Position numbers and translations under genes: made by a program. From NCBI RefSeq assembly GCF_028553745.1, contig NZ_CP067131.1, forward strand, positions 186,001 to 250,000: 64,000 nucleotides of DNA, read 5' to 3'. This DNA is from Paracoccus seriniphilus. GTDB taxonomy: Bacteria > Pseudomonadota > Alphaproteobacteria > Rhodobacterales > Rhodobacteraceae. The number at the start of each line of letters is the position of its first letter. The first letter of the stretch is position 1. Under the pieces are notes generated by a model. It searched no databases, was not told the DNA's origin, and worked only from the letters and a program-made list of their open reading frames with translations. Shown here piece after piece: positions 1-21,331 of this stretch.

Positions 1-2710
1 GCATTGATTGGTTCGGATCGCGGGGCAACAGGCCGACCAACTCGCGACGTGGCTTGCCATTGGCGCGTCGCAGGGCAATGGCGCGCTTGCCGATGAAGTC
101 GGGTTTCGTTTTCGACATTACCCAACTCATACCCAGATCATGAGGGTCGACGGTGCCATCCGCTTCGTGACCAAGCGAGAGAAAGCCCTTTTCGACGCGC
201 AGCACGTGATTGGCCTCCGAGCCGATGGGCGCGATGCCAAGAACGGCCCCGACTTGCAGGATGCTTTCCCACAGGGTTTCAAGGTGTCTTGGCATGACGT
301 TGATCTCGTAGGACAACTCGCCAGTAAAGCTGACCCGCATCACTCGTGCCGGTAGCCCCGCGACATGACCCTCACGCAGCGCCATGAAGGGGAAAGCGCC
401 CGGCGACAGGTCAATATCGGTGCCAAGTGTTTGCAACAGCTTGCGGGCAAGCGGGCCGCAAACCGTGGCGTTGACCCATTGGCTGGTCAGCGGAGTGACA
501 TGGACCTGCCAATGCCGATATTCCGTCTGCAGCAGCTTCTCCATGTGCTGATAGACTGCATCGGCATTGCCGGTCGAACTGGACATCAGCCAGCGCTGTT
601 CATCAAGACGGAAGGTCACACCGTCATCAAGGATCAACCCGTCATCGGTCAGCATCAGCCCGTATCTGCCGTTGCCGGGCTTCAGGCTGGACATGATGTT
701 GGTGTAGATCAGATCAAGAAAGGCGGGCGTGTCGGGACCCTTGAGTTCGAATGTACCAAGCGGAGAGCCATCATAGACTCCGACCGCTTTCCGGACCGTG
801 TCGCATTCGCGATTGACAGTCTGTTGAAGGCTTTCGCCGGGACGGGGATAGTAGCCGGGCCGTTGCCAGCGTGCGCCAGCCTCATACATGACGGCGCCAT
901 TGTCACGGTGCCATTGCGTCAGAGGGGTATGGCGATAGGGCAGGACTACGCTGTCTTCGCGAAGCCCGGCGATGGCACCGAAAGAAACCGGCGTATAGGG
1001 CGAACGGAAGGTGGTGGTTCCGACCTCCTGCAAGGCCAGCCCTTGTTGCAGGGCAATGGTGCCGATGATGTTGATGTTGCCGGTCTTGCCCTGATCGATT
1101 CCCATGCCGCCGGTGGTGTAGCGTTTGACATGCTCGACATTGTCATAGCCTTCGCGCAAGGCCAGATGCACATCATCGACCGAGACATCGTTCTGAATGT
1201 CGAGGAAGGCCTTGCCCCTGGTCTTGCGGGTCTGCACCCGCCACAGCGGTTCGATGGCATAGGGCAGATCTTCGGCATCCGGCACCTCGCCGGGATCCGG
1301 GTCAAGCCCGAGACTCTGGCTTGCCATCCGGGCCACCTCGGCCCCGGTCTGCAGGGCTTCGGCCAGCGACATGCGACCTGAAGCTGCACCCACGCTGTGC
1401 GTCGGCTGTGCCGGCACGTCGGGGATGAAGCTGGCGATACCGGGGTCATATTTCAGGCTGCCGCGAGATTGTGAGAACAGATGCAGCGCCGGGTTCCAGC
1501 CGCCCGACAGGCCAACAAGATCGCAGGCGATGTTCTGCACATTGCTGCCGTCAAGGGCCGCGACCGAGACGCTTCGCACCCGACGATGGCCCTTGCAACT
1601 GGTGATTACATGCCCGGTCAGGACGCGTATCCCGCTGACCATTGCCAGAGCCTGAGGGGGCACCGTGCTGCGGCTGTCGATGATTGCAGCGATCGTGATC
1701 CCGCCCGCGCGCATGTCGGCGGCAACAGAATAGGCGCTGTTGTTGTTGGTGAACAGCACCGCGCGCGTTCCCGGAAGGGTGGCATAGCGGTTGACATAGG
1801 TCTGGATTGCCGATGCCATCATCACGCCGGGTCGATCATTGTTCGCAAAGACCATGCTGCGTTCGATGGCGCCGGTGGCGCAGATGACCTGAGCAGCACG
1901 GACGCGCCAACTGCGCTCGATCACGCCGGATGTCGCGGGAGAGCGTTCATTGACCATCAGCAGGTTGTGTTCGCGGTAGGCCCAGACAGTGGCATTTTGC
2001 AGATGGGTGACATTCTTCATCTCGGCAAGCTGGGCGGTGACGCGCGTGACCCATTCCAGCGCAGGGGCACCGTCAATCCGCAGATTGCGCGCCAGCAGGC
2101 CACCGCCTGGCTCGCTGCCCTCATCTGCAAGGAAGACCCTTGCGCCCGCCCGTCCCGCGACCAGGGCCGCCATCAACCCAGCCGGACCCGCCCCGGCTAT
2201 CAGCACATCGGCATGGGCATTGCGCGCCTCGAAGCGTCCGCTGGCAGGCGGGGCAGAGGGCGCAGGTGCAAGCCCGGCGGCGCGGCGAATGGCAGGCTCG
2301 AACAGGTGCCAGTCGGGCCATTTGAACGTCTTGTAGTAGAACCCCGCCGGGATGAAGCGCGCGATCATCTGGTTGACGCTTCCAATATCGAAGCCGGGCG
2401 AAGGCCAGCAATTGACCGATTTCGCGCGCAGTCCGTCGCGCAATGGCACCAGGGTGACCGGATTGTTCCCCGAGGCATCTTCACCTTCAAGTTCGACCAG
2501 TGTCGCGGGCTCTTCGACGCCGCTGCCGACAATGCCCCGAGGGCGGTGATATTTGAAGCTGCGCGCGGTCAGAGAAACACCATTGGCCAGAAGCGCCGAA
2601 GCCAGCGTGTCGCCAGCATATCCGCTGTAGGGCTTGCCGTTGAAATGGAATCTCAGCTTGCGGCTGCGGTCGATCCGTCCGCCTTCGGGACGACGGTATT
2701 CATAGGCCAT
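1..2710 (-). CDS. soxA: Sarcosine oxidase alpha subunit, C-terminus off the window
   Basis: Large subunit of heterotetrameric sarcosine oxidase, which oxidatively demethylates sarcosine or a related N-methyl amine and passes the one-carbon unit to tetrahydrofolate. The reading frame is open from an ATG at 2710 to the window edge (903 codons); family members are about 970-1000 residues, so roughly the last 70-100 are missing. Visible are an N-terminal 2Fe-2S-like fold starting MAYEYRRPEGG, a dinucleotide-binding loop GAGPAGLMAAL near residue 180, and a C-terminal GcvT/aminomethyltransferase-like half (for example KAVGVYDGSPLGTFELKG). The start overlaps the end of soxD by 11 bases, so the two are probably translationally coupled. 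It ends the minus-strand run GST-soxB-soxD-soxA; soxG would be expected beyond the edge. The natural substrate may be an N-methyl intermediate of this cluster rather than sarcosine. Confidence 0.93.
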   Translation of the reverse strand, partial: MAYEYRRPEGGRIDRSRKLRFHFNGKPYSGYAGDTLASALLANGVSLTARSFKYHRPRGIVGSGVEEPATLVELEGEDASGNNPVTLVPLRDGLRAKSVNCWPSPGFDIGSVNQMIARFIPAGFYYKTFKWPDWHLFEPAIRRAAGLAPAPSAPPASGRFEARNAHADVLIAGAGPAGLMAALVAGRAGARVFLADEGSEPGGGLLARNLRIDGAPALEWVTRVTAQLAEMKNVTHLQNATVWAYREHNLLMVNERSPATSGVIERSWRVRAAQVICATGAIERSMVFANNDRPGVMMASAIQTYVNRYATLPGTRAVLFTNNNSAYSVAADMRAGGITIAAIIDSRSTVPPQALAMVSGIRVLTGHVITSCKGHRRVRSVSVAALDGSNVQNIACDLVGLSGGWNPALHLFSQSRGSLKYDPGIASFIPDVPAQPTHSVGAASGRMSLAEALQTGAEVARMASQSLGLDPDPGEVPDAEDLPYAIEPLWRVQTRKTRGKAFLDIQNDVSVDDVHLALREGYDNVEHVKRYTTGGMGIDQGKTGNINIIGTIALQQGLALQEVGTTTFRSPYTPVSFGAIAGLREDSVVLPYRHTPLTQWHRDNGAVMYEAGARWQRPGYYPRPGESLQQTVNRECDTVRKAVGVYDGSPLGTFELKGPDTPAFLDLIYTNIMSSLKPGNGRYGLMLTDDGLILDDGVTFRLDEQRWLMSSSTGNADAVYQHMEKLLQTEYRHWQVHVTPLTSQWVNATVCGPLARKLLQTLGTDIDLSPGAFPFMALREGHVAGLPARVMRVSFTGELSYEINVMPRHLETLWESILQVGAVLGIAPIGSEANHVLRVEKGFLSLGHEADGTVDPHDLGMSWVMSKTKPDFIGKRAIALRRANGKPRRELVGLLPRDPNQSM

Positions 2711-2954
2711 GGGGGGGCTCCACGATGTCATGGGTTCTGGTGTCGCGCCAAAGGCTGAGCCAGCGTCCGCATCCCGCGGCGTGCCACCAATATTCCTGTA
2801 CCGGGCCAAGCGGATTGGGTACTGTCGTCAGATAGTCGACCCAATCCTCGTCGCTGGTCTCAAGAGGGTTGGGACGCGGCGCCTGGACCGGCCCCCCATA
2901 AGTGAATTCGCCTTCGCTGCGTTCGCCGCAATTGGGGCAGGATATGAGTAGCAT
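2700..2954 (-). CDS. soxD: Sarcosine oxidase delta subunit
   Basis: Small structural subunit of heterotetrameric sarcosine oxidase, 84 residues, the usual length. It shows the zinc-site pattern of the family: CPNCGERSEGEF near the start, then a His and Cys in WWHAAGCGRW around residues 57-64. It lies between soxB and soxA in the conserved B-D-A order, 10 bases after soxB and overlapping soxA. It has no catalytic role of its own that can be seen. Confidence 0.93.
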   Translation of the reverse strand: MLLISCPNCGERSEGEFTYGGPVQAPRPNPLETSDEDWVDYLTTVPNPLGPVQEYWWHAAGCGRWLSLWRDTRTHDIVEPPHGL

Positions 2955-2964
2955 GATGTATCCT

Positions 2965-4218
2965 CTATCGAGCTGTCGTCGTGCCTGATTCCATGACGTA
3001 ATCCAGTGATTTGAAGCGGTTGAGCGTGAAGGCGGCCATCAATGGATGCGGTGTTCCCTTGGCGACCAGATGCGCCAGCGTCAGCCCGCCCGCCGGTATT
3101 GCCTTGTAGCCGCCCCACCAGCCGGCCGTGACGATCAGGCCGGCGACATCGGTCAACGACATGATTGGTGATGAATCATGGGCGATATCCAGATGTCCGC
3201 CCCATTGCCGCATGAGCTTCAGCTTCTTGAAAGCAGGAAACAGCGAAAGCATCATCGAGACACTGTCTTCGAAGACATGCTGCTTGATGTCGCGCCGAAA
3301 GCTCTGGCCCCGGTCAGGAGCGCCGCCGATCACCATTTCGCCCTTGTCGGACTGGCTGAGGTAGAAACCGCTATCGGGGCAATTCACGATGACATCGATC
3401 AACGGCTTTACAGGCTCGGAGACGAAGGCGGTCAGATTCATGGTGCGCAGTGGCAGGCGCAGCCCGGCGGTCTCGGTCAGGGTGGTCGTGTGCCCCGAGA
3501 CTGCGACGACCACCTGCTTGGCCCGGATCGTGCCCCGGTTGGTCTCGACACCCGCAATGGCACCATCGCCCCCCCGGATCAGCGCGGTCACCTCTGTCTG
3601 TTGATGGATCTCGACGCCATGTGAATCGGCGCCACGAGCATAGCCCCAGGCCACGGCGTCATGGCGGTTGACCGCAGCATCCGTGTGAACCATGCCACCA
3701 ATGATCGGCAATCTTGCGTTTGCACCGCCGCCGGTCAACGCCGGGATACGGCGGCGCAGCTCTTGTGTCGTGATCTGCTGATAGGTGGCCCCGTGAATGT
3801 CCATGGCCAGCTGGCGGCGGCGCAATTCGCGCAGACGGCCATAGGTCTGAACCACGTCAATCATGCTGCGTTTGGAGTGCATCATGTTGAAGTTGAGTTC
3901 GCGGGTCAGACCTTCGAACATCTCGACGGATTTGACATAGAAAGGGATTGATTCATCGCGCATGTAGTTCGAGCGGATGGTCACCGTGTTGCGCGCGATA
4001 TTGCCCCCGCCCAGCCAGCCCTTTTCAAGCACTGCGACATTGGTGATGCCAAATTCCCGCGCCAGATAATATGCGGTGGCCAGGCCATGCCCGCCTGCTC
4101 CGATGATGATGACGTCATAGGCGGGCTTCAGCGGTGGGCTGCGCCAGGCTTTTGACCAGTTCTCATGGCTGGAAAACGCGTTGCGTACGAGCGAAAAGAC
4201 CGAGTAGCGCTGTTTCAT
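2965..4218 (-). CDS. soxB: Sarcosine oxidase beta subunit
   Basis: FAD/FMN-containing DAO-type subunit that carries out amine oxidation in the sarcosine oxidase complex. It is 417 residues, normal for the family. The N-terminal ADP-binding motif IIIGAGGHGLATAYYL lies at 37-52, and the conserved segment RHDAVAWGYAR at 185-195 lies in the area where the covalent flavin His is usually placed (H186 or the nearby H178; which one is not settled by eye). GGAPD and AGWWGGYKAIPAGG blocks near the C-terminus are also family-like. The start ATGA overlaps the stop of the upstream GST gene, which indicates coupled expression. Confidence 0.93.
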   Translation of the reverse strand: MKQRYSVFSLVRNAFSSHENWSKAWRSPPLKPAYDVIIIGAGGHGLATAYYLAREFGITNVAVLEKGWLGGGNIARNTVTIRSNYMRDESIPFYVKSVEMFEGLTRELNFNMMHSKRSMIDVVQTYGRLRELRRRQLAMDIHGATYQQITTQELRRRIPALTGGGANARLPIIGGMVHTDAAVNRHDAVAWGYARGADSHGVEIHQQTEVTALIRGGDGAIAGVETNRGTIRAKQVVVAVSGHTTTLTETAGLRLPLRTMNLTAFVSEPVKPLIDVIVNCPDSGFYLSQSDKGEMVIGGAPDRGQSFRRDIKQHVFEDSVSMMLSLFPAFKKLKLMRQWGGHLDIAHDSSPIMSLTDVAGLIVTAGWWGGYKAIPAGGLTLAHLVAKGTPHPLMAAFTLNRFKSLDYVMESGTTTAR

Positions 4219-4910
4219 GTTTGCTCCGGGGTTGGGTCGGGCCAGGCGCGACGCGGATGATCAAGGGTGAATTTCGGGCGCGGAGGGCCATCTGCGAGAG
4301 CAATCTCGCGCCATCGCCTGAATGACGGATCGCGCAGATGCGCCTGCACATAGGCCGCGGCTCTATCGGAAACGGGCAGGTCGAAACCGGCGATGCGCGC
4401 CGCGACCGGGGCAAAGAATGCGTCGGCTGCGCAGTAGTCGCCACATAGCCAGGGGCCGTCACTGTTGCAGATCCTGCGGGCATGATCCCAGATATATTCC
4501 AACCGTTGCAGATTGGCGCGGACGGCGTCATCGACCGGTCTGGCCACAAAGGCCTCGCGCAGGTCCATCGGGCAGGCACGGCGCAGTGAAAGGAACCCAG
4601 AATGCATTTCTGCGGCAAGCGCACGGGCAACGGCACGATGCGCGGGGGCTTTGGGCCATATCCCGGCTTCGGGGTGGCGGCTGGCCAGTTCCTCGGCGAT
4701 GGCCAGGCTGTCCGCGATGGTGACATCGCCAAAATTCACCGCCGGGACACTGCGCGCCGGCGCAAAATCCAGCATCATCGCCTTGAAATCTTCGCTGCCG
4801 AGCCGGGCGAATCTTGGGGTGACGGGAATGTTGAACCGTTCGAACAGCAGCCAGCCGCGCATCGACCAGCCTGAATAGCCCGGGTCGCCCAGGGCAAGTT
4901 CATATGCCAT
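4215..4910 (-). CDS. Glutathione S-transferase family protein
   Basis: Soluble GST-fold protein of 231 residues from the ATG at 4910 (MAYELALGDPG). An upstream extension to 5057 is possible but reads as low-complexity arginine-rich sequence. The N-terminal thioredoxin-like domain has YSGWSMRGWLLFERFNIP, matching the SSWSLR-type glutathione site of bacterial GSTs, and the cis-Pro segment SVPAV. The C-terminal half is helical with WLCGDYCAADAFFAPV. Its stop overlaps the soxB start (ATGA). Within this cluster a glutathione-dependent isomerisation or formaldehyde/epoxide handling role is conceivable but unproven. Confidence 0.85.
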   Translation of the reverse strand: MAYELALGDPGYSGWSMRGWLLFERFNIPVTPRFARLGSEDFKAMMLDFAPARSVPAVNFGDVTIADSLAIAEELASRHPEAGIWPKAPAHRAVARALAAEMHSGFLSLRRACPMDLREAFVARPVDDAVRANLQRLEYIWDHARRICNSDGPWLCGDYCAADAFFAPVAARIAGFDLPVSDRAAAYVQAHLRDPSFRRWREIALADGPPRPKFTLDHPRRAWPDPTPEQT

Positions 4911-4942
4911 CGGTGGCATCCTTTGCTGAGTTGGAGGCGCGA

Positions 4943-6016
4943 TCAAAGTCCGATGCGGCGATCGGGTTGTGCAAAAGTGGCGCGCAGACTGGGGTAGGCA
5001 GCAAGGATCTCGCTCCCTCCGGGGACCGCGTCGGGATCCAGCACGCCGTCCTTCCAAAGGGTAACTCCGTCAACCACGATGGTCGGATCTACCACATTCC
5101 ATGAGATTTCGCCGGGCGCGTATGCGCCGCAAGTGTGAAAATGCAACAGGCGCGGATTGCCGAAGGCTGCGCCGCTCCAGCGCATGAAGTCATCTGTTGC
5201 GGGGGCGGCAAAGCCGCAGCCCGGGTGGATGCCTACATGCCATGAATGGACAAAGTCGCGATCAATGTCGAAAAGCTTCGCAACGTGGTCATAGTGCTTC
5301 TGGGCGGCAGTGATTGCCTCTGAATCCCCGGAAAACCCTGTTATCCGCCCTGCATCGAATTCAGCGAAAAGTGTGCCTTCATATTCCATCATATAGGGCG
5401 TGTAATATTTCGACCCTGTGCCGACCAGAAAGCCGGGCAAGGCAACCCGGCCCGAGAATCCGGCGGCAGGCAGCGGCATGAAAACCGGCATGGGAAAGCG
5501 CCTTAGACCAACATCCTGGGGAGGCACTGCGCTGCCGGGCCCCGCGCCGGTGAATTCGGTGCCATTGGGACAGGTTGCATGGATGATTTCGGCTTTGCCG
5601 AGCATCGAGTTCAGCGCCGATTTCAACGCGTCAAAGCCGTGGTAATCTGCGGTGCCATAGGCCGAACCAAGCATCTCGGCATCCAGCGCGTAAGAGATCA
5701 CGGCCTGCCCATGCGCCCCAATGTCGGTAAATCTTAGCTGATCGCCAATCCGGGCCAGAAACACGGTTTGATCAGCTGCCCGCATCATATCGGTGAGCGA
5801 GTCGGGTAGAGAGGTGGCAATCGGGTCAAAGGGCACTTCGTGCAGGCTGACCCTGGCCCCCAGGCGGCGCGCGACCGTCGCAACCGCAGTGACGATCTCG
5901 CGATCATAATAGCCCAGGTTCTCCGGTTCGTGCAGAATCAGAACCTGGTCGTTCCTGCCGGTGCCGGCGCAGTTGCGAAGCAGGTTCTCTGCGCCCTTCT
6001 CGACATTACACGGCAT
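4943..6016 (-). CDS. NicX/M29-like metalloenzyme
   Basis: Cytoplasmic protein of 357 residues, beginning at the ATG at 6016 preceded by GAGGAG; an in-frame TTG lies six bases upstream. Overall layout and length recall the family that includes NicX (2,5-dihydroxypyridine 5,6-dioxygenase, about 350 residues) and aminopeptidase T-like proteins: an N-terminal Rossmann-like segment (VLILHEPENLGYYDREIV), then HSWHVGIHPGCGFAAP and LLHFHTCGAYAPGE near the C-terminus, where NicX carries its iron ligands. By eye the usual His-x-Asp pair is replaced by HFH, so the metal set may be all-His. It heads the minus-strand operon, divergent from a LysR gene. Ring opening of a pyridine-like substrate is an inference from family and neighbours; a hydrolase is the main alternative. 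Confidence 0.6.
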   Translation of the reverse strand: MPCNVEKGAENLLRNCAGTGRNDQVLILHEPENLGYYDREIVTAVATVARRLGARVSLHEVPFDPIATSLPDSLTDMMRAADQTVFLARIGDQLRFTDIGAHGQAVISYALDAEMLGSAYGTADYHGFDALKSALNSMLGKAEIIHATCPNGTEFTGAGPGSAVPPQDVGLRRFPMPVFMPLPAAGFSGRVALPGFLVGTGSKYYTPYMMEYEGTLFAEFDAGRITGFSGDSEAITAAQKHYDHVAKLFDIDRDFVHSWHVGIHPGCGFAAPATDDFMRWSGAAFGNPRLLHFHTCGAYAPGEISWNVVDPTIVVDGVTLWKDGVLDPDAVPGGSEILAAYPSLRATFAQPDRRIGL

Positions 6017-6106
6017 GATCAACGTACTCCTCGATAGGTGACCGGATTTGGGTCAGGCTAGAGGGGAGCTTCGCGAAGGTTCAATTTGTAAAACATTAAC
6101 AGCTAC

Positions 6107-6121
6107 ATTAGGAACACTAAT
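6107..6121. promoter_or_regulatory. LysR-type operator overlapping ribosome binding site
   Basis: Perfect dyad ATTAG-N5-CTAAT ending one base before the lysR ATG. It contains a T-N11-A core (T6108, A6120), the classic LysR-type recognition pattern. The only good Shine-Dalgarno (AGGAA, 6110-6114) lies inside it, so occupancy would directly limit lysR expression. It sits in the divergent region serving both the lysR gene and the minus-strand NicX/GST/sox operon. Confidence 0.6.
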
Positions 6122-7039
6122 ATGCTTCAGAATCTTCCCTATACTGCATTACGCACTTTCGAGGCCGTAGCCCGTCTGCGGGGCTTTGGCCGGGCCGCAG
6201 AAGAGCTGGGTGTAACCCAGAGTTCCGTCAGTCAGCAGGTCAAGGTGGTGGAAGAATGGATTGGCCGGTCGTTGTTGACCCGCGGCCAACGCAAAACCAC
6301 CCCCACTGCCGAGGGACAACAACTGGCTGATGCTGTGGCCAGCGGGCTTGGGCAAATCGCGGATCTGTGCAACGAACTGCGTCGGAAGGGCCGAAGCGAA
6401 ACGAGCATCGTGATCTCTGTCCCGCCGGGGCTGGCGGTGAACTGGCTGTTCGCAAGGCTGATCAAGTTCGATCTGAGCCATGGTGAAACGCCAGTGTCGA
6501 TTTCGACGGATCCATTGCGCCGTGGCTTTGTCTCTGGCCAGGCCGATTGTGCAATTCTTTACGGATTTGGCGATTATCCCGGCCTGCATGTCGAAAGATT
6601 GCTGAGCGAGAAGATCTATCCGGTCTGCTCTCCGAAGCTGCTTGAACAGGATCCGCCGCTGAACAGCCTTGCAGATCTATCGCAGCATACGCTTCTCGTT
6701 GACAATATCGTCGATATCGGAGGCAACCCGCCGACCTGGAGTTTCTGGGCCGAGCAGACCGGACAGACTACGCCGGAACCTGCGCGTACCCGGAAGTTTG
6801 GTCAGGCCAATATGGTTGTCCAAGCGGCAATTCAGGGGTTGGGTGTGGCGCTTGGACGTGAGCCTCTGGTCAATGAGGCGCTGGCCGATGGCAGTTTGAT
6901 GCGTCCCTTCGAAGGGGAAGCCATGTCGCAATTCTCATATTGGTTTGTCTGCCCTCAGGCCGCGCTGAAGGCCCCGCATCTGCGGAGGTTCCGCGACTGG
7001 CTGTTCGAAGAGGCAGATCTGACCCAAAGGGCTTCATAA
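6122..7039 (+). CDS. LysR-family transcriptional regulator
   Basis: DNA-binding regulator of 305 residues. The N-terminal winged helix-turn-helix is clear (LRTFEAVARLRGFGRAAEEL then GVTQSSVSQQVKVVEEWIG), with a substrate-binding fold after about residue 90 and the GcvA-like feature of aromatic residues and a late GVALGREPLV segment. It is divergent from the NicX-like/GST/sox operon and 97 bases upstream of the Rieske oxygenase, so it most likely controls both directions of the cluster in response to the pathway substrate or an intermediate. A dyad at its own start suggests autoregulation. Confidence 0.92.
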   Translation: MLQNLPYTALRTFEAVARLRGFGRAAEELGVTQSSVSQQVKVVEEWIGRSLLTRGQRKTTPTAEGQQLADAVASGLGQIADLCNELRRKGRSETSIVISVPPGLAVNWLFARLIKFDLSHGETPVSISTDPLRRGFVSGQADCAILYGFGDYPGLHVERLLSEKIYPVCSPKLLEQDPPLNSLADLSQHTLLVDNIVDIGGNPPTWSFWAEQTGQTTPEPARTRKFGQANMVVQAAIQGLGVALGREPLVNEALADGSLMRPFEGEAMSQFSYWFVCPQAALKAPHLRRFRDWLFEEADLTQRAS

Positions 7040-7040
7040 G

Positions 7041-7080
7041 ATGAACTAATGGTTCATATTATAATTCCGTTATTGGGAAC
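7041..7080. promoter_or_regulatory. Candidate regulator sites before the Rieske gene
   Basis: Two dyads lie between lysR and the Rieske gene: ATGAAC-TAATG-GTTCAT (7041-7057, perfect) and TTCC-N7-GGAA (7065-7079). The second includes ATTGGGAAC, close to ATTAGGAAC in the operator ahead of lysR, so the same LysR protein may bind both places. No clear sigma-70 hexamer pair was assigned. Confidence 0.4.
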
Positions 7081-7136
7081 GTCAGTCGCCCTGCCTTAGG
7101 TTTCGATGACAAACATCGAGAAAGGGCGGGCTGGAT

Positions 7137-8174
7137 ATGTATCTCCGAAACGCATGGTATGTCGCAGGCTGGAGCAAGGATTTCGACCGAGGACTGAAGG
7201 CCGAGACCTTCCTCGGTGAGGAAATCGTCATCTATCGCAAGCAGGACGGTACGCCGGTCGCGCTTGAGGACGCCTGCCCGCATCGCAAGCTGCCGCTTTC
7301 GGATGGCAAGATCGACGGAGATGTCGTGGTCTGTGGCTATCACGGCCTGACATTCGACTGCTCCGGTTCTTGCGTGGCGGCGCCCACCCAACCCGGCAGG
7401 GTTCCCTCCAAGGCGGTGGTGCGCTCCTATCCGGTGGTGGATCGTTACCGACTGCTGTGGATATGGATGGGAGATCCGGCGCTGGCCGACCCTGACAAGA
7501 TCTTCAAGATCGAGAATTTCGACAATCCCGACTGGGGATGTACCGATGGTGGCGTGCTTGATATCGACTGCAATTATCTGTGGATCGCGGACAATCTTCT
7601 GGACCCAAGCCATGTCGCCTGGGTGCATGTGACCTCTTTCGCCGGTGCGGGAACTGATGATGAACCGCTGAACGTCGAGGTCACCGATAGCGGGGTCATC
7701 GTCTCACGCTGGATTCATGACAAGCCGCCCTCACCCTATTATGCGGGCTTGGTCAAATTCGAGGGAAATTGCGATCGGTTGCAGCATTACCAGATGGATT
7801 TTCCGGCAATCGGCACAAACAAGTCGGTCTATACGCCTGCTGGTACGGGTGGCCCCGGCGCAGCGCCAAACGCGCAGACCTATATCAACATTTCCTACAA
7901 TTTCATGACCCCGATCGATGAGAACCGCAGTCGCTATTTCTGGTTCCAGCATCGCAATACCGACCCGCAGGACAAAACGATTTCGGAAAAGATGAATGCC
8001 GGGGCCCGGATGGCCTTTGAGGAAGATCGGCAGGTTCTGGTCGCGGTGCACCGCGGCATGACCAACAAGAAGACGCCGAACCTCGACCTTGGGCTGGACA
8101 AGGGGGCCAAGTTGTTTCGCCTGCATTTGCAGCGGCTTATCGAAAAGGAACAGGCCAGAATTTTGGCCAATTGA
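7137..8174 (+). CDS. Rieske non-heme iron oxygenase, VanA-like
   Basis: Aromatic ring-hydroxylating or O/N-demethylating oxygenase of 345 residues. The Rieske cluster ligands are C47-P-H49 and C66-x2-H69 (DACPHRKL, VVCGYHG). The mononuclear iron site is NLLDPSHVAWVH with H159 and H164. The single-component-oxygenase size and layout match vanillate demethylase oxygenase and related N-demethylases. AAAGGGCGGG precedes the ATG. It needs an electron donor; the [2Fe-2S] ferredoxin at 12687 is a candidate, while no reductase is visible in the window. The expected role is the first attack on an aromatic or N-methyl substrate imported by the downstream ABC transporter. Confidence 0.9.
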   Translation: MYLRNAWYVAGWSKDFDRGLKAETFLGEEIVIYRKQDGTPVALEDACPHRKLPLSDGKIDGDVVVCGYHGLTFDCSGSCVAAPTQPGRVPSKAVVRSYPVVDRYRLLWIWMGDPALADPDKIFKIENFDNPDWGCTDGGVLDIDCNYLWIADNLLDPSHVAWVHVTSFAGAGTDDEPLNVEVTDSGVIVSRWIHDKPPSPYYAGLVKFEGNCDRLQHYQMDFPAIGTNKSVYTPAGTGGPGAAPNAQTYINISYNFMTPIDENRSRYFWFQHRNTDPQDKTISEKMNAGARMAFEEDRQVLVAVHRGMTNKKTPNLDLGLDKGAKLFRLHLQRLIEKEQARILAN

Positions 8175-8230
8175 CCCGTGCCGCCATCGCTTTCCCGCGG
8201 TGACGACAAGCTATGGACGAAAGGAATGCC

Positions 8231-8821
8231 ATGTCAGCCTGGATTGAAATGATCTCTGACGAGGATGCCGACCCGGACTTGCAGCAGGTGTTGCAACTGG
8301 CGCGTACCCCGCATGGCACAGTTGACAACGTGATGCGGGTGCATTCCTTGCGCCCAAACACGATGAGGGGGCATGTTGTGCTGTATCGCGCGGCTTTGCA
8401 TGATCCGGCCAACACGTTGCCGATGTGGCTGCAGGAATGTGTCAGCTCCTATGTCTCGATTCTCAACAACTGCCCCTATTCACTGGCCAATCATTGGGCC
8501 AATGCCCGGCATCTGATCGGCAATGAAAGCCGAGCAGATGCGATCGAGGCCGCTCTTCACGCGCGACGCCCCGAAACGGTTTTCGAAGGACGCGAGTTGG
8601 CCTTGATGCGCTATGCCGAGAAGCTGACCCTGCGTCCGGGCGAGATGGTCGAACCCGATGTGACAGTGCTGCGCCAGGCCGGATTGAGCGATGGAGAGAT
8701 CCTCGAAGCCAATCAGATCATCGGTTACTTCAATTATGCCAACCGGTTGCTGAACGGTCTTGGAGTGTCCACCGAGGGAGATGTCGTTGGATATTATGCC
8801 CAAGAAACAAGCAAAATGTGA
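8231..8821 (+). CDS. AhpD-like/peroxidase-related protein lacking second Cys
   Basis: Helical alkylhydroperoxidase D-like protein of 196 residues. The start at 8231 is chosen because AAAGGAA lies 6 bases upstream; an earlier ATG at 8213 has no such site. The core motif region reads ECVSSYVSILNNCPYSLANHW: the family normally has Cys-x-x-Cys followed by His, but here the second cysteine is Ser (C81, S84, H88). Classic disulfide peroxidase chemistry is therefore doubtful, and the protein may act in a lyase, decarboxylase-like or structural role. It follows the Rieske gene by 56 bases, probably in one operon. Confidence 0.75.
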   Translation: MSAWIEMISDEDADPDLQQVLQLARTPHGTVDNVMRVHSLRPNTMRGHVVLYRAALHDPANTLPMWLQECVSSYVSILNNCPYSLANHWANARHLIGNESRADAIEAALHARRPETVFEGRELALMRYAEKLTLRPGEMVEPDVTVLRQAGLSDGEILEANQIIGYFNYANRLLNGLGVSTEGDVVGYYAQETSKM

Positions 8822-8952
8822 TTAGCAAATCTTATGGAGCTTAGTAGTTCTTGGCGATACCGATCCACCGATAAATCTACATAGACTTTGATCAGGCTTG
8901 GCGACGAAAGGCGTTGCAAGCCGGACGATCATGGTTGTGCTTCAGGAAAGGA

Positions 8953-9798
8953 ATGACGATGCAGGCGCAGAGGATCGAGATATCGCGCATCCGCGAGTCC
9001 AGAGGACCGGACCTGCGCGGGCTGAGCCGCGCGATCTGGCAGATATGCCAGGCCGTCCTGGTGCTTGGTCTTTTTGCGCTGCTGATTTGGCGTGGCGCGC
9101 AGTCGATGGAATACAATTGGCAATGGTACCGGATCCAGCCGTTCTTCTACCGTGTGATTGATGGCGAACTGATCTGGGGGCCGCTGATCAAGGGGCTGAT
9201 GGTCACCTTGCAGCTGGCGGCATTAAGCGGCGTGATTACCATTGCCATCGGCCTTGCGACCGCGCTGATGCGATTGTCGGATTCGATATCTGGTCGTGTC
9301 ATCTCGAAAGTCTATCTCGAGGCCATCAGAAATACGCCGCTGTTGGTGCAGCTGTTTCTGTTCTATTTTGTGCTGGCGCCAATTTTCGGGATCGACCGGT
9401 TTTGGGCTGGCGTGCTGTGCCTGTCTTTTTTCGAGGGATCATTCGCCTCGGAAATTATTCGCGGGGGTATCGTCGGGGTTGATCGCGGCCAATATGAAGC
9501 CGCCGATGCAATCGGGCTGAACCGCTACAACAAGTTTCGCCATGTGGTGATCCCGCAGTCACTTCCGATGATCCTGCCTCCCTTGACCGGGGTGATGATC
9601 TCTCTCATCAAACATTCGGCGATCGTCAGTGTCATCGCGGTATCTGAACTGACGACCGCAGGTCTGAACTTGATCTCGGACACTTTCATGGCATTCGAGG
9701 TCTGGTTTCTGGTCGCGGGCATCTATCTTGCCGTCACGATCTCGCTCTCGGTTGGGGTGAGCGTCCTCGAAGTCTTCCTAAACAAAAATAAACGCTGA
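8953..9798 (+). CDS. Polar amino acid ABC transporter permease
   Basis: Inner-membrane permease of the HisM/GlnP type, 281 residues from the ATG at 8953; an ATG at 8959 is better spaced from AAAGGA and may be the true start. Hydrophobic helices begin near VLVLGLFALLIW, and the EAA loop that docks the ATPase is visible as EAADAIGLNRYNKFRHVVIPQSLPMILPP. The four-gene set that follows (binding protein, second permease, ATPase) forms a complete importer. Its substrate is probably the compound degraded by the neighbouring Rieske/sox enzymes. Confidence 0.9.
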   Translation: MTMQAQRIEISRIRESRGPDLRGLSRAIWQICQAVLVLGLFALLIWRGAQSMEYNWQWYRIQPFFYRVIDGELIWGPLIKGLMVTLQLAALSGVITIAIGLATALMRLSDSISGRVISKVYLEAIRNTPLLVQLFLFYFVLAPIFGIDRFWAGVLCLSFFEGSFASEIIRGGIVGVDRGQYEAADAIGLNRYNKFRHVVIPQSLPMILPPLTGVMISLIKHSAIVSVIAVSELTTAGLNLISDTFMAFEVWFLVAGIYLAVTISLSVGVSVLEVFLNKNKR

Positions 9799-9854
9799 CG
9801 CCGGGAAGCCCTGGCAGGGTCAGCGATCAACGATCCAACAGTGGAGAATATAAA

Positions 9855-10685
9855 ATGAAATATTTCGGAGCTTTGAAAGGGATTGTGGTTGCCGCCGCGT
9901 TGGCGGTGACGACGCTAGGAGCGACCTCGTCGCAACTGCACGCGCAGGGACTGGTCGAGGAAATCGCGCAGCGAGGCAAGCTGCGGGTCGGGCTGTCGAC
10001 CTTTGTGCCATGGGCGATGCGCGACAAATCGGGAGATCTGATCGGCTTCGAGGTCGATGTGGCCCGCAAGCTGGCCGAGGATATGGGAGTGGAAGTCGAG
10101 TTCGTTCCCACTGCCTGGGGCGGTATCGTGCCGGCACTTCTGGCCAAGAAGTTCGATGTGATCATCGGTGGTCTCTCGATCACGCCGGAACGCAACATGA
10201 CGATCAATTTCACCATTCCCTATGCCCATTCGGGCCAGCAAATGGCCAGCAATATCGAACTTGCAGGCGACTTCACCTCGCTGGACGACTACAATGATTC
10301 CAGTGTGACTCTGGTGTGTCGCCGTGGCGCGACGCCCTGCGACTTCATCCCGAAACGTTTCCCCAAGGCCACGCTGCGCCAGTTTGACGACGAAGCCCAG
10401 GCCTTTCAGGAGGTTGCGAACGGGAATGCCCATGCGATCGTTTCCTCGGCGCCGAAACCGACATTTTATGCTGCTGACACGCCGGACAAGATCTTCATGG
10501 CCAATGATGGCGAGAACCTGACCAGAGGCAACGAAGGTTTCGGCCTGCGCAAGGGCGACGCAGATGCTCTCAACTTCTTTTCGAACTGGATTCTGTTCCG
10601 CACGTCGGACGGATGGATCGACGAGCGTCATGACTATTGGTTCAAGAACAAAGCCGCTTGGGAAGAACAGATCGGATCCAACTGA
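9855..10685 (+). CDS. Amino acid-type ABC transporter substrate-binding protein
   Basis: Periplasmic solute-binding protein of 276 residues, family 3 (PBPb fold). A signal peptide is evident (MKYFGALKGIVVAAALAVTT, cleavage probably after LHAQ). Family blocks include GKLRVGLSTFVPWAM, GFEVDVARKLAEDMGVEVEFV and DVIIGGLSITPERNMTINFT. A cysteine pair (CRRGATPC) may form a disulfide. It lies between the two permease genes. The pocket residues cannot be assigned by eye, so the ligand is unknown beyond amino acid or quaternary amine-like. Confidence 0.9.
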   Translation: MKYFGALKGIVVAAALAVTTLGATSSQLHAQGLVEEIAQRGKLRVGLSTFVPWAMRDKSGDLIGFEVDVARKLAEDMGVEVEFVPTAWGGIVPALLAKKFDVIIGGLSITPERNMTINFTIPYAHSGQQMASNIELAGDFTSLDDYNDSSVTLVCRRGATPCDFIPKRFPKATLRQFDDEAQAFQEVANGNAHAIVSSAPKPTFYAADTPDKIFMANDGENLTRGNEGFGLRKGDADALNFFSNWILFRTSDGWIDERHDYWFKNKAAWEEQIGSN

Positions 10686-10765
10686 TCTGCGATTGAACCC
10701 GACAAGCCATAGCCGGCGCACGAGGTAACTTGCGCGCCGCCTCCGCCAAGCGAGGACAAAGAACC

Positions 10766-11671
10766 ATGGAACGCAACGCCACCCCGCCGCCGCCGGCCAG
10801 GAAGCGGATGACATTGATTGACATTTTGGCATTCAGCGCGGTGCTGGGGCTTATTGTCTTCGCGGTCTACCGGGTCAATGAGGTGCTGGTCTACAATTGG
10901 GACTGGTCACGGGTCCTGAGCTATATCCTGCGCGTGGATGACGAGACCGGCCAATATGCCGCCAACCTGCTGCTGTATGGTCTTGCGACCACGCTGCGAC
11001 TTGCGGTCTGGGGGACCGTCCTGGCCAGCGTTTTCGGCGTGGTGATGGGGCTCTGGCGGACCAGCGACAATCTCACCTTGCGGATTCTCAGCCGCAGCTA
11101 TGTCGAACTGATCCGCAACCTGCCGCCGCTGGTGTTCATCTTCATCTTCTATTTCTTCGTCTCCAGCCAGATGTTTCCGGCGATGGGGATCGATAATATC
11201 AACCCGGACAATGCTGCGGTGGACAATCGTGTGTTCCGCCTGTTGTTCGGCGATCCGCAGCTACTGCCGAACTTCCTTGCCGGTGCGCTGTGCCTGGCGT
11301 TGTTCGAGGGTGCCTATATCACCGAGATCGTGCGCGCCGGGATCCAATCCATTGCCAAGGGTCAATGGGAGGCAGCGCGCGCCATTGGACTGTCTCGTTT
11401 CAACGTGCTGCGCGACGTCATCCTGCCACAAGCCCTGCGCCGGATCCTGCCGCCGCTGGCCGGGCAGTTCATTACCCTGATCAAAGACTCTGCGATCGTG
11501 TCGCTGATCTCGATTCAGGAACTTACTTTCATGGCCACCGAAGTTGCTGCCACCACCACGAAGGTTTTCGAGACCTGGATCCTGGTTGGCGGGATCTATT
11601 TCGTGCTGTGCTACAGCTTTGCCTTGTTTTTCGGCACGCTTGAACGGCGTGCTTCCAAGACACGCCGCTAG
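10766..11671 (+). CDS. Polar amino acid ABC transporter permease, second subunit
   Basis: Second inner-membrane permease, 301 residues from the ATG at 10766, preceded by GAGGA; the longer frame starts with TTG. Helices occur near [17 protein letters not shown] and [20 protein letters not shown]. The EAA loop reads [20 protein letters not shown]. It pairs with the permease at 8953 to form the heterodimeric channel. The ATPase gene starts 10 bases after its stop. Confidence 0.9.
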
Positions 11672-11681
11672 GAGATATCCG

Positions 11682-12434
11682 ATGCTTGATACAACCACCG
11701 GTCCGCTGCTTGAGATAAGCCAGTTGTGCAAATGGTATGGGACTTTCAGTGCGCTCCACGATATCAACCTGTCGGTGGCAGCGGGCGAAAAGGTCGTGAT
11801 TTGCGGCCCTTCCGGGTCGGGGAAATCCACGGTGATCCGCTGCATCAATCAGCTTGAAGCGCATCAACATGGCCGCATCCTTGTCGACGGCGTCGAGGTG
11901 AAGCCGGGCATGAAGAATATCGCGCAGATCCGCCGTGACGTCGGCATGGTTTTCCAGGGCTTCAACCTGTTCCCGCATCTGAGCATCCTGAACAACCTTA
12001 CCCTAGGCCCGATCCGCAATCTGGGAGTTTCACGCGACGAGGCCCGTGAGCGGGCGATGCACTATCTCAAGCGTGTTCATATCGCCGAACAGGCCGACAA
12101 ATTTCCTTCTCAGCTTTCAGGTGGGCAACAGCAGCGAGTGGCTATCGCGCGGGCCCTGTGCATGCAGCCGAAGATCATGCTGTTTGATGAACCGACATCC
12201 GCGCTCGACCCTGAAATGATCGCCGGGGTTCTGGATGTCATGGCCGAACTTGCGGATGAGGGAATGACGATGATCTGCGTGACCCACGAGATGGGCTTTG
12301 CCCGAAAGGTTGCCGACCGGGTTGTCTTTATGGATGCGGGCGAAATTGTCGAGATCGCAGAGCCGGAAGCATTCTTCAGCGCCCCTAAAACGGAACGCGC
12401 CCAGCTGTTTCTAGGGCAGCTCTTGGGCCATTGA
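11682..12434 (+). CDS. Amino acid ABC transporter ATPase
   Basis: GlnQ/HisP-type ATPase, 250 residues from the ATG at 11682 (GGAG seven bases upstream). Walker [11 protein letters not shown]-loop [11 protein letters not shown], signature [15 protein letters not shown], Walker [13 protein letters not shown] and the switch His in [20 protein letters not shown] are all present, so it should be active. It completes the importer encoded from 8953. Confidence 0.95.
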
Positions 12435-12632
12435 GAAAGGTGGATGGTCCCTGATTTGGCTTTCTGGTCGAAGCTTGCCCCGGACATATGTCCTTCCGGC
12501 TCATCTACACGGTCGGCACATGGCAGAGCGAGTTTGGTGAACTTCTCGGAAAGCTGGTGAAGCCTCAACTGATGCCGCCGACCTCTTGGGCTTCGTGCGT
12601 GATAGGTGGGCTTTCGTCGCAAGACGCAATGA

Positions 12633-13010
<378 letters not shown>

Positions 13011-13488
13011 TCATATGATCACCACAACGGGTGCGGCTTGCCATAAGGTGAGGTGATGGCCTCGGTGCTGAACCGACGGCACCCGATAATTCCTGCTCGC
13101 CCCCGCGAGAAAGGCGTTTGGCGCCGCGCGCCAATCTTTTTCCGAGTCAAACTGGCAAACCCGGGGTTGGGTAGAACTGATTGAGGATCTTCCTCAATAT
13201 CCTCACAAAGAAGGTTCCAGATCTTTCCGGTCTGCAGGCGTCATGCAAGATGCATATGAATGAATTTGGTCTCATAATATGCATTTGGCATTCAAAATGG
13301 CGTGCAAGATGATTTTATTCATGTGATTGTTGTTCTAAATATATCTTGATAATATTAATTTTCTGCATATAGCGAGTAAGTGTGCGATATATTTTTCATT
13401 TCCTTAATTCTGATAATTACGAGGAACTTGAAATTAAAAGTGTTGTTCGGGGCAATATGATTGCCCTTCACCTGAAAGAGAGGTTCAA
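13011..13488. other. Long AT-rich non-coding stretch before ridA
   Basis: No convincing gene. It holds the right part of the 14-bp palindrome at 13008-13021 and a tight hairpin with an 8-bp stem ATTGAGGA/TCCTCAAT (13180-13198, loop TCT). From about 13230 to 13480 a strongly AT-rich tract contains repeated TGCAAGATG words and TATAAT-like segments. This composition is unlike the rest of the window and suggests promoter DNA, a foreign insert or both. A short GTG-started frame at 13382 runs into ridA out of frame and was not accepted. Confidence 0.5.
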
Positions 13489-13884
13489 ATGCCGAGACAG
13501 AACATTCACGTTTATGAAACGCGTTATCACGCCGTTGCAAAATATTCCAAAGCCATTCGTGCTAAAGGAGATTTTGTTTTCATGCAGGGCCAGGTCGGCA
13601 CCTTGCTGGATGGCACGCTGATCGGTGAGGGTGATCCTGGTGCACAGGCCCATCAGGCGTGTCGCAATATCAAACGGTGGATGGAAGAAGCGGGCGGCTC
13701 ACTCAAAGACGTTTGCAAGCTGACCGTTTACGTTACGGATATTTCCTATCGCGCTCCGGTCTATGCGGCAATCAATGAATGGTTCGAAGGCGTTCATCAT
13801 TGTTCGACAGGAGTGGTGGTTCAAGGATTGGCGGATCCTTCCATGCTGGTCGAAATAGATGCGATGGCAATAATTGACGACTGA
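13489..13884 (+). CDS. RidA/YjgF family protein, active-site Arg missing
   Basis: Small trimeric RidA-fold protein, 131 residues. RidA enzymes hydrolyse reactive enamine/imine intermediates; deamination depends on an Arg in the segment normally reading about PARxT before the VEIEA block. Here that segment is HHCSTGVVVQGLADPSMLVEIDAMAI, with Ser or Thr where the Arg is expected (around residue 106), so it may not be a classical imine deaminase. AAGAGAGG precedes the ATG. It is followed 24 bases later by an AstE/AspA-like gene, suggesting joint work on a nitrogenous intermediate. Confidence 0.85.
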   Translation: MPRQNIHVYETRYHAVAKYSKAIRAKGDFVFMQGQVGTLLDGTLIGEGDPGAQAHQACRNIKRWMEEAGGSLKDVCKLTVYVTDISYRAPVYAAINEWFEGVHHCSTGVVVQGLADPSMLVEIDAMAIIDD

Positions 13885-13908
13885 AGTATAGGAACTGCGA
13901 GGCATGAA

Positions 13909-14910
13909 ATGACTAAAAGCGCAGTAACTGCGACGATAGATTTTTCCAAGGACGGGAAGCATGTTGGGGACCTGCGGGTAAAATGGTCGGACAATTCGAT
14001 CCCTCTGGGATTTCATCTCGTTCCCATTATCAGCATTAAAAACGGCCAAGGCCCGGTTGTGCTGATCTTTGGGGGGACGCACGGCGACGAGTTCGAGGGG
14101 CCATCGGCAATGATGCGTTTGGCTTCCGATCTGCCCCTTGACCAGATTGCGGGTCAGATCATCTTGGTCCCCGGTCTGAACGCCCCGGCCGTTCGGCAAT
14201 CAAGTCGGGTGTCACCCCTGGATAACGCCAATCTTAACCGGGCTTTTCCGGGCGATCCATTGGGCGGGGTGACCGATCAGATCGCCTATTATGTGGAAAC
14301 GGAATTGCTGCCCATGGCGAATGCGGCGGTGGATTTGCATTCCGGTGGCAAGGCTTCCGTGTTTGCGGCTTGCGCCCTGGCCACCCGCACCGAAGATACA
14401 GAGCTTTTTGCCCGCAACATCGATCTTGCAAAGGCTTTCGGCCTGCCTCTGATATGGGTGCTCGGCCGGTTCAACGATGCAAGATCTTTGAACTCTGCGG
14501 CCGAGCGAGCCGGAGTGCCAATGATCGCGGCCGAGTTGGGCGGCGGCGGAGGCGTCGATCCCGCTATCACAGCAGCTGCCGAGAAGGGACTTTACGCGGT
14601 GCTGCGCCACATTGGGGTTCTGGCCGGGACGCCGCCGTCATTCACTGATCCAAAACGGGTAGAGATCACCGCGCAGGATCACAGCCTGTTTGCACAGGGC
14701 GAGGGGGTCTTCGACCGCATGGTCAGCGCCGGTGAACATGTCAAAGCGGGGCAAGTCGCCGGACGATTTCACTACATCTCAGAACCGCGCCGGCCTTCAG
14801 AAGATATCCGTTTTGGCCAAGATGGCTTTGTTCTGGCTCATACTAACCGTGGCTATGTCCACCGCGGCGACATGTTGATGCTTGTTGTCCAGGAGGTATT
14901 GTCAGTTTAA
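13909..14910 (+). CDS. Succinylglutamate desuccinylase/aspartoacylase family hydrolase
   Basis: Zinc-dependent M14-like amide hydrolase of 333 residues. Zinc ligands and catalytic residues fit the family: GGTHGDEFEG (H58, E61), DLHSGG (H144) and AAELGGGGG (E209, the general base). A C-terminal beta domain (GEGVFDRMVSAGEHVKAGQ) is present. Relatives remove acyl groups from N-acylated amino acids such as N-acetyl-diaminobutyrate (DoeB), N-succinylglutamate or N-acetylaspartate. In this cluster it may release an amine or formyl/acyl group after ring opening; the actual substrate is unknown. Confidence 0.85.
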   Translation: MTKSAVTATIDFSKDGKHVGDLRVKWSDNSIPLGFHLVPIISIKNGQGPVVLIFGGTHGDEFEGPSAMMRLASDLPLDQIAGQIILVPGLNAPAVRQSSRVSPLDNANLNRAFPGDPLGGVTDQIAYYVETELLPMANAAVDLHSGGKASVFAACALATRTEDTELFARNIDLAKAFGLPLIWVLGRFNDARSLNSAAERAGVPMIAAELGGGGGVDPAITAAAEKGLYAVLRHIGVLAGTPPSFTDPKRVEITAQDHSLFAQGEGVFDRMVSAGEHVKAGQVAGRFHYISEPRRPSEDIRFGQDGFVLAHTNRGYVHRGDMLMLVVQEVLSV

Positions 14911-15007
14911 CTCGTAGAGTTTGCAGGTTGGCATGACATGTGTTGACCAAACGGAATATGCGGCAGAATTCTACGTCGAGATATGCGCAGAAGCTGGTGA
15001 CGCTTGA

Positions 15008-15360
15008 TCAGGCGGCATCTTGAAGCTGGCGGATCCCGTCGCGGAACTCGATCCCCTGGATGATCTCGGGCAGGCGGTTTTGACCGTCGAGTTTTCGCCA
15101 TTTCTTCTGCGCCGACATCATCAGCTTGAAGGCCACACGCCAGCCCGGTCTTGCGGTTGAGGCATCCCTTGGTGCGATGCCGGACGGTGGCGAAGGTGCT
15201 TTCGATCAGATTTGACGTCCGGATGTGCTTCCAATGTTCAGCCGGGTAGTCATGGAAGGTCAGCAACGTGTCCCGGTCCTTGTCCAGCTTGGCGACCGCC
15301 CTGTCCCATTTCACGCCGTAGGTCTCGACAAAGAAGTCGAAGGCGGCCTCTGCGTCAGCC
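15008..15360 (-). pseudogene. IS256-family transposase, C-terminal remnant
   Basis: The minus strand encodes the C-terminal third of an IS256-type transposase: EAAFDFFVETYGVKWDRAV, then HIRTSNLIESTFATVRHRTK and, after a one-base shift near 15143, FKLMMSAQKKWRKLDG and a natural stop at 15008. The N-terminal part is absent. At its left limit it abuts a second transposase fragment in opposite orientation, so this is a rearrangement scar and not a functional element. Confidence 0.8.
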
Positions 15361-15361
15361 G

Positions 15362-15540
15362 GAATCTGTTGATGACGCGCTGACCGAGATCGCCCGTGAC
15401 GGGGCGCGCCGGATGCTGGCGGCTGCGTTGCGGGCCGAGGCTGACGCCTTCGTTGCGCAACATGCCGGAGAGGTTCTGCCGGACGGCCGTCAGCGGGTTG
15501 TGCGGCATGGTTACGGGCCGGAACGCAGTATCCAGGCCGG
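15362..15540 (+). pseudogene. IS256-family transposase, N-terminal remnant
   Basis: Plus-strand fragment with the N-terminal signature of IS256-type transposases: VDDALTEIARDGARRMLAAA followed by GEVLPDGRQRVVRHGYGPER. It lacks both its start and everything after about residue 75. It lies head to head with the C-terminal remnant on its left and abuts the truncated ABC exporter on its right. Confidence 0.75.
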
Positions 15541-15989: not shown

Positions 15990-16057
15990 GGCGGTGTGCA
16001 CATTCTATCAAGACCGGTCGCGGTGCGTCTCGCTGATGAGCATGGCGAGAAGTCGGG

Positions 16058-21328: not shown

Positions 21329-21331
21329 GGT

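Follow-up and report, generated by a model that had tools for sequence, protein, structure and literature searches.

A conserved accessory catabolic gene cluster of Paracoccus seriniphilus with recurrent linkage to histidine utilization genes among its relatives

RESULTS

Gene content of the cluster

The window analyzed here is a 64,000-nucleotide stretch of the Paracoccus seriniphilus genome (contig NZ_CP067131.1, positions 186,001 to 250,000; C3:186001-250000 in the host genome coordinates). Its first 14.9 kb hold two divergent gene arms flanking a LysR-type regulator gene (Table 1). The minus arm encodes, in order, a NicX-fold protein, a glutathione S-transferase (GST), SoxB, SoxD, and SoxA, and the plus arm encodes a Rieske oxygenase, an AhpD-type protein, a four-gene ATP-binding cassette (ABC) importer, a ferredoxin, a RidA-family protein, and a DoeB-like hydrolase. 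A first-pass annotation of this DNA had proposed a catabolic cluster for an N-methylated heterocycle such as homarine or trigonelline. The cluster proved to be conserved, its relatives recurrently adjoin histidine utilization (hut) genes, and we give about an even chance to its being an accessory, LysR-controlled cluster for the catabolism of a small histidine-type (imidazole) amino acid bearing N-methyl groups.

The Rieske oxygenase is of the VanA type, with the motif CPH...CGYH from residue 47, the mononuclear iron motif NLLDPSHVAWVH from residue 153, and both PF00355 and PF19112 over cut-off. Its closest chain in the Protein Data Bank (PDB) is dicamba demethylase (3gb4, E value of 1.1e-41). 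A scan of the 15 cluster proteins with domain and family models revealed no dedicated reductase, only the Fer2 ferredoxin, the presumed electron donor to the Rieske oxygenase.

Genes for all four subunits of a heterotetrameric sarcosine oxidase are present, those for SoxB, SoxD, and SoxA in the window and a SoxG-like frame, read by eye, outside it beyond SoxA (L090, about 13260-13770). A gene for PurU (formyltetrahydrofolate deformylase), scoring over cut-off, follows there as well. The SoxA frame measures 1012 amino acids when followed beyond the window start (L090), and the protein as cut by that start scored 1104.6 bits against TIGR01372 (cut-off of 1164). Curated NCBIfam cut-offs were missed by SoxB (Table 1) and SoxD (92.2 bits, cut-off of 116.5). 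The genome has four SoxB-type copies, and the one in the cluster is 44 to 46% identical to the other three. The GST matched PRK15113 with an E value of 2.1e-16, under the cut-off.

The cluster has transposase genes to its left and right, namely the Mutator-family remnant at the right edge (Table 1) and a gene at L090:7854-8891, the product of which has an HTH_38 domain over cut-off and an integrase core under cut-off. Past the remnant, the translations at window positions 16866-22513 include RND-type efflux and outer-membrane efflux-type proteins that look unrelated to the cluster.

Table 1. Features of the cluster and its right edge, in window positions
Feature	Position	Strand	Evidence or remark
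SoxA-like alpha subunit, heterotetrameric sarcosine-oxidase type	1..2809	-	GCV_T and SO_alpha_A3 domains; cut by window start
SoxD-like delta subunit	2700..2954	-	PF04267, E 2.9e-27
SoxB-like beta subunit	2965..4218	-	TIGR01373, 506.6 bits (cut-off 529.45)
Glutathione S-transferase family protein	4215..4910	-	PF13409, E 5.1e-6; start codon at 4910 assumed
NicX-fold protein, His-rich putative metal site	4943..6022	-	Family without Pfam or NCBIfam model
LysR-type (GcvA-like) regulator	6122..7039	+	PF00126/PF03466; between the divergent arms
VanA-type Rieske non-heme iron oxygenase	7137..8174	+	PF00355, E 2.8e-22; PF19112, E 4.9e-42
AhpD/carboxymuconolactone-decarboxylase-type "peroxidase-related" protein	8228..8821	+	TIGR01926, 98.9 bits (over cut-off 81.8)
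ABC permease, polar amino acid type	8914..9798	+	TIGR01726, 78.9 bits (cut-off 42.2)
Solute-binding protein, family 3	9855..10685	+	PF00497, E 7.3e-30
Second ABC permease	10730..11671	+	TIGR01726, 66.1 bits
ABC ATPase, GlnQ/EhuA-like	11682..12434	+	GlnQ model, 315.9 bits (under cut-off 379)
[2Fe-2S] Fer2 ferredoxin	12684..13010	+	PF00111, E 2.5e-13
RidA-family protein	13489..13884	+	PF01042, E 6.8e-24
DoeB-like AstE/AspA-type N-acyl amino acid hydrolase	13909..14910	+	PF24827, E 1.7e-36
Frame with Mutator-family transposase remnant, right cluster edge	14907..16001	-	PF00872, E 7.6e-8 over 63 residues

Conservation of the cluster among relatives

Named genomes were scanned with the Rieske protein, and the best 80 of 583 confirmed relatives (69 to 81% identity) were used. 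The flanked set comprises the 61 of these 80 loci that have 8 kb or more of sequence to either side; in it, matches of at least 40% identity were counted as linked. By this measure the Rieske gene was accompanied by NicX-like (50 loci), LysR (46), ABC ATPase (43), and AhpD (39) genes, less often by genes for SoxA (23), SoxB (21), PhyH (14), DoeB-like (11), and RidA (10) proteins, and rarely by those for the Fer2 ferredoxin (2) or GST (0). Dropping the identity limit gave 47 loci for LysR, 45 for the ATPase, 15 for PhyH, 12 for DoeB-like, 11 for RidA, and 2 for GST. On these counts, the core consists of the Rieske, NicX-like, LysR, AhpD, and importer genes; SoxBDAG, DoeB-like, and RidA genes are additions in part of the loci, and those for GST and the Fer2 ferredoxin are seldom present. 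The first-pass annotation would have been refuted by homologous clusters in which these genes are never linked, and the counts did not refute it. Their linkage in the flanked loci indicates a real, conserved cluster and supports its description as an accessory catabolic unit with an importer, an oxygenase, an N-deacylase-type hydrolase, and a SoxBDAG-type demethylase. The SoxBDAG genes are optional, and the N-demethylation that it had included therefore lies outside the invariant core.

A fatty-acid-desaturase family protein (39 of 61 loci) and a small Rieske-type ferredoxin (38 of 61) also accompany the Rieske gene (e.g., L047 and L062); in the window cluster neither was seen, and the Fer2 ferredoxin is present instead. 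MttB, found in only 1 of the 61, was rejected as a general cluster part. Creatininase and DoeB-like genes, in 10 and 12 of the 61 loci, never overlapped, but about 2 overlaps are expected by chance and this is no evidence of mutual exclusion. On a Ruegeria conchae plasmid (L084:22491-26225), the RidA gene is followed by an AEC transporter gene and then by a set of four encoding an amidase, a DUF1116 protein, and a pair of hypothetical proteins; this set resembles oxamate carbamoyltransferase genes.

In an unbiased draw, 24 of 198 genomes from the family had a match to the NicX-like protein family (23 of them long and strong, the host's included), as did 15 of 385 from the class (10 strong); the trait is patchy.

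Recurrent linkage to hut genes

In the neighborhoods of relatives, hutF, hutI, hutH, hutG, hutU, and hutC were found next to the NicX-like and Rieske genes or between them. At one locus (L064), hutC, the NicX-like gene, hutFIHGU, and the Rieske gene are interleaved, and all six hut genes score over the NCBIfam cut-off. Seven of the 80 Rieske loci (6 of the 61 flanked) had two or more hut structural genes; when a single hut gene or a HutC-like regulator was enough to count, the number rose to 14 (13 flanked). Hut genes are also annotated in 3 of 10 plasmid regions (Leisingera M658, Mameliella, and P. yeei).

To avoid choice by Rieske similarity, a second sample of 32 contexts was picked by the NicX-like protein alone; together with the window's own, this gave 33 NicX-like places, 29 of them in genomes with a hutH match. 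A hutH match lay within 12 kb of the NicX-like gene in 8 of the 29, two of these eight coming from one genus. As a control, SoxB genes of the same genomes lying more than 20 kb from the NicX-like gene had hutH within 12 kb in 1 of 70 cases (2 of 77 when copies near the NicX-like gene were included). The single control SoxB near hutH (G566:C1:1936701) is 80% identical to that of the window and is probably part of the same system, which lies some 20 kb from it. The binomial value for hutH proximity, 2e-11 at an assumed background of 0.7%, ignores kinship and is not a usable probability.

On a NicX-like tree of 97 rows (59 Rieske-chosen, 32 NicX-like-chosen, and 6 plasmid regions), 14 rows were hut linked, requiring 13 changes, at least 10 of them forced by well supported branches, and the label was not clustered (223 of 500 shuffles as low). 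On the Rieske tree it was clustered (10 changes, 1 of 500 shuffles as low). The hut association recurs on deep and shallow branches, with repeated gain indistinguishable from repeated loss. Both trees were made by a quick method, include duplicate loci (L027/L156, L010/L150, and L072/L149), and may mislabel short-contig loci as not hut linked; the Rieske tree retains a second, distant Rieske protein (L084_r21), and the NicX-like tree has long branches (L070, L165, L029, and L177 to L179).

The linkage might instead mean only that the genes occupy the same region, or share HutC regulation, within a catabolic island, the substrate being unrelated to histidine. Such islands commonly gather catabolic genes, most of the loci are without hut, and transposase genes flank the window cluster. 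Against this, the linkage appears in differing arrangements on both deep and shallow branches and the SoxB-type genes of the same genomes are seldom hut linked (the 1 of 70 above), and we consider this explanation quite unlikely.

The NicX-fold family and its putative metal site

NicX (PDB 7cn3 and 7cup) was the best fold match of the window protein, spanning 307 residues, and the NicX/M29 fold was recovered over the whole chain, so the fold had been called correctly in the first-pass annotation. A PDB sequence search returned no match, whether the query was the NicX-like protein itself or its alignment, and its profile reached only 22.6% probability against a single NicX sequence; the homology was seen once both families were aligned. 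The family has at least 1464 database members, and no Pfam domain was found among the 120 members listed.

All 20 NicX-family rows carry the NicX iron ligands H265, S302, H318, and D320. In the sequence-based profile alignment they are faced by S258, H294, E303, and S305 of the window family, and Ser302, His318, and Asp320 are not kept in either the global or the local version. Two residues from S258 lies the invariant H260. All 98 rows of the window family keep H260, H292, and H294; 97 keep D310, and 88 keep E303, a position at which 7 others have D. A closer NicX homologue, 46% identical to Pseudomonas putida NicX and separate from the cluster protein, is encoded elsewhere in the host genome (C4:391667-392680).

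An N-methylpyridine such as homarine would draw on the same set of enzymes: the Rieske oxygenase would hydroxylate the ring, the NicX-fold protein open it to give an N-formyl compound, the DoeB-like hydrolase deformylate this, and SoxBDAG demethylate the resulting N-methylglutamate. TgnAB, the system that opens trigonelline, is a flavin system of the luciferase-type/flavin-reductase kind. The scan of the 15 cluster proteins, which included no search with a TgnA sequence, showed neither a luciferase-type nor a flavin-reductase family. Beside the relative cluster on the Leisingera sp. M658 plasmid (L085:2122-7737) are genes for an aldehyde dehydrogenase, a luciferase-type monooxygenase, a flavin reductase, an alpha/beta hydrolase, an AA_synth protein, and a GntR regulator, five enzymes and a regulator that we take to resemble tgn/hom-type pathways; that monooxygenase has no match in the window's genome at an E value of 1e-60. 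The replacement of the three NicX ligands, the recurrent hut neighbors, and the assignment of trigonelline ring opening to the TgnA/TgnB oxygenase system in passages of PMC8269262 all speak against a pyridine substrate. Homarine and trigonelline were set aside on these grounds as the leading explanation, and the pyridine-type substrate of the first-pass annotation appears unlikely. Passages on homarine report that Mgd participates in its catabolism (PMC13390433), that it is among diatom metabolites (PMC9038784 and PMC9723723), and that it has no confirmed transporter in Ruegeria pomeroyi (PMC9723723). In PMC12093977, homarine is mentioned in the reference list alone. The Rieske/NicX-fold/AhpD set is not described in the homarine and trigonelline passages of these papers.

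Relatives joining hut and cluster genes

A compact relative is found on a complete contig of 2.75 Mb (G213), in which about 23 kb (C1:340254-363430) joins hutC, hutF, hutI, hutH, and hutU to cluster genes for NicX-like (39% identity), AhpD (70%), importer (63 to 65%), DoeB-like (47%), Rieske (59%), and SoxB (71%) proteins. SoxG-A-D-B and a LysR gene, read by eye, are also present, as are a two-part sulfopyruvate/phosphonopyruvate decarboxylase-like enzyme and a HisC-like aminotransferase, both under cut-offs. No HutG-like protein was found in this genome (L064 query, E value of 1e-20), and the DoeB-like hydrolase may replace the N-formylglutamate deformylase HutG after HutF, a role that would be in keeping with an N-formyl amino acid substrate. 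A HutG match is missing in 4 of 28 hutH genomes (G213, G398, G408, and G439). The DoeB-like gene of G398 directly adjoins SoxGADB. In G408 and G439 the stretches read contain no DoeB-like gene, so the substitution is not general.

Among the best 80 of 583 relatives, Defluviimonas sp. WL0075 (L004) has the most similar Rieske gene (81%). Its core is adjoined by the decarboxylase, aminotransferase, and DoeB-like genes of the G213 type and by an aldehyde dehydrogenase gene. A ComE-like decarboxylase was rejected as a core step, since only 4 of 32 NicX-like genomes have a match.

A sister Rieske clade beside hut genes

The host genome has a second Rieske gene (C2:423968), 53% identical to that of the window and about 12 kb from the genome's only hutH match (C2:410664). 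In the tree it groups with a Mameliella plasmid copy that likewise lies by hutUGH, LysR, and reductase genes. At this host locus (L091, G000:C2:412000-431900), the second Rieske gene, a reductase-like gene, and a LysR gene adjoin the hut genes, and both Mameliella (L087) and P. yeei pLM20P5 (L180) show a similar arrangement with a HisC-like aminotransferase and a FAD-linked oxidase, a possible module for methylhistidine or imidazole-lactate. The 28-kb plasmid pLM20P5 carries LysR, Rieske, reductase, and AstE-like genes, an importer, a hut regulator, and hutFIHGU. In passages of PMC4447125, the authors of that plasmid described its Rieske pair as a vanillate demethylase and distinguished a vanillate module and a histidine module.

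The cluster might also serve an N-alpha-methylated histidine (hercynine or ergothioneine), which MttB-type, Rieske, or SoxBDAG demethylation would convert to histidine for the hut pathway, with the His- and Cys-rich NicX-fold protein and AhpD handling the thiol or ring. MttB-family genes lie near the cluster in two Ruegeria plasmids, Alisedimentitalea, and L168 (23% identity), some relatives have full hut operons, and Cys149 and Cys296 are each present in 92 of 98 NicX-like rows. However, MttB was found at only 1 of the flanked loci, albeit with a query from one lineage, the L064 urocanate hydratase scores under the thiourocanate hydratase cut-offs, and the C-terminal domain of the Rieske oxygenase is of the VanA type and not of the CntA/GbcA type. 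We regard this alternative as improbable.

DISCUSSION

A methylated, histidine-like substrate is favored over a pyridine because relatives of the cluster repeatedly adjoin hut genes, and the hut-adjoining sister Rieske clade in the host's own genome, Mameliella, and P. yeei pLM20P5 supports this. From the gene content, the conserved linkage, the recurrent hut association, and the fold, we infer the substrate, the order of the steps, and each reaction. The most likely substrate is N-pi-methylhistidine, whether free or derived from anserine or ovothiol. It would be taken up by the ABC importer, and its ring would be oxidized and either opened or trimmed by the ferredoxin-fed Rieske oxygenase, the NicX-fold metalloenzyme, or both, to yield an N-acyl, probably N-formyl, amino acid. 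The DoeB-like hydrolase would then deacylate this product, SoxBDAG would strip the N-methyl group as methylene-tetrahydrofolate, and PurU would release formate. In hut chemistry, the pi nitrogen of histidine becomes the alpha nitrogen of glutamate. By the same logic, N-pi-methylhistidine would give N-formyl-N-methylglutamate and then N-methylglutamate, a route that would explain the odd pairing of a deacylase with SoxBDAG. The transaminase-decarboxylase variant seen in L004, G213, and R. conchae would lead to a product one carbon shorter, an aspartate derivative. We put forward, only tentatively, a new hut branch for N-pi-methylated histidines in marine Alphaproteobacteria, with a rebuilt NicX-fold metal site (H260, H294, and E303), a deacylation, and a folate-dependent demethylation at its end.

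Several observations weigh against a histidine-type substrate. Two hut structural genes are lacking at 55 of the 61 flanked loci and any hut gene at 48, and no hut gene is annotated in 7 of the 10 plasmid regions (two Ruegeria with the window-type Rieske, Ruegeria AD91A, Leisingera thetidis, Alisedimentitalea, Shinella, and Pseudomonas fragi). No hut gene (hutH, hutU, and hutI included) was found among the window cluster proteins scanned, and the genome's only hutH match is on C2, the cluster being on C3. The best fold match, NicX, cleaves a pyridine; H260, H294, and E303 could form a 2-His-1-carboxylate iron site, and such a rebuilt carboxylate site would slightly favor a dioxygenase, usable for histidine and pyridine substrates alike. 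The lack of a DoeB-like gene in G408 and G439, both without a HutG match, the restricted distribution of the ComE-like decarboxylase together with its having no match in the window's own genome, and the reliance of the pi-methyl proposal on known hut chemistry count in the same direction.

The biochemistry of the first-pass annotation was thus half right and its interpretation partly supported, the pyridine-type substrates being the part that found no support. Two things are added here: a connection to the breakdown of histidine, and a NicX-fold family whose putative metal site, as judged from the alignments, differs from that of NicX. We recognized no literature joining these gene families in the openly licensed PubMed Central (PMC) papers, a weak negative given that coverage. 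The hut linkage narrows the candidate N-methyl heterocycles to methylhistidines, hercynine, ergothioneine, and ovothiol. A core enzyme of a conserved accessory pathway of marine Alphaproteobacteria sits in a large family whose listed members have no Pfam domain, and the metal site, if as predicted, would show a ring-cleavage fold rebuilt around different metal chemistry.

Several known systems resemble parts of the cluster. The hydrolase shares the AstE/AspA-type family with DoeB, the N-acetyl-L-2,4-diaminobutanoate deacetylase of ectoine catabolism (E value of 9.4e-60 to 6twm; 3cdx is a further PDB relative), but at 240 bits it does not reach the cut-off of the TIGR02994 equivalog (402.7). 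No ectoine genes are named beside the DoeB-like gene in the annotated plasmid regions, where no search was aimed at them. The NicX-fold protein is similar in length to NicX (350 and 357 residues) and is its remote profile homologue, at an identity of only about 16 to 18%. The tgn and hom pathways act on N-methyl heterocycles, as the first-pass annotation had proposed for the cluster; no TgnA/TgnB-like flavin system was seen among the window cluster proteins scanned. Plasmid pLM20P5 shares with it LysR, Rieske, and AstE-like proteins and an ABC importer, but also has hut genes, a Rieske protein of the sister clade, and a separate reductase gene, and a search of the plasmid gave no NicX-fold match. 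Compared with the hut pathway with HutF and HutG, the window cluster has the Rieske oxygenase, NicX-fold enzyme, AhpD, DoeB-like hydrolase, and SoxBDAG in place of hut genes, whereas a minority of its relatives carry the cluster inside or beside hut operons.

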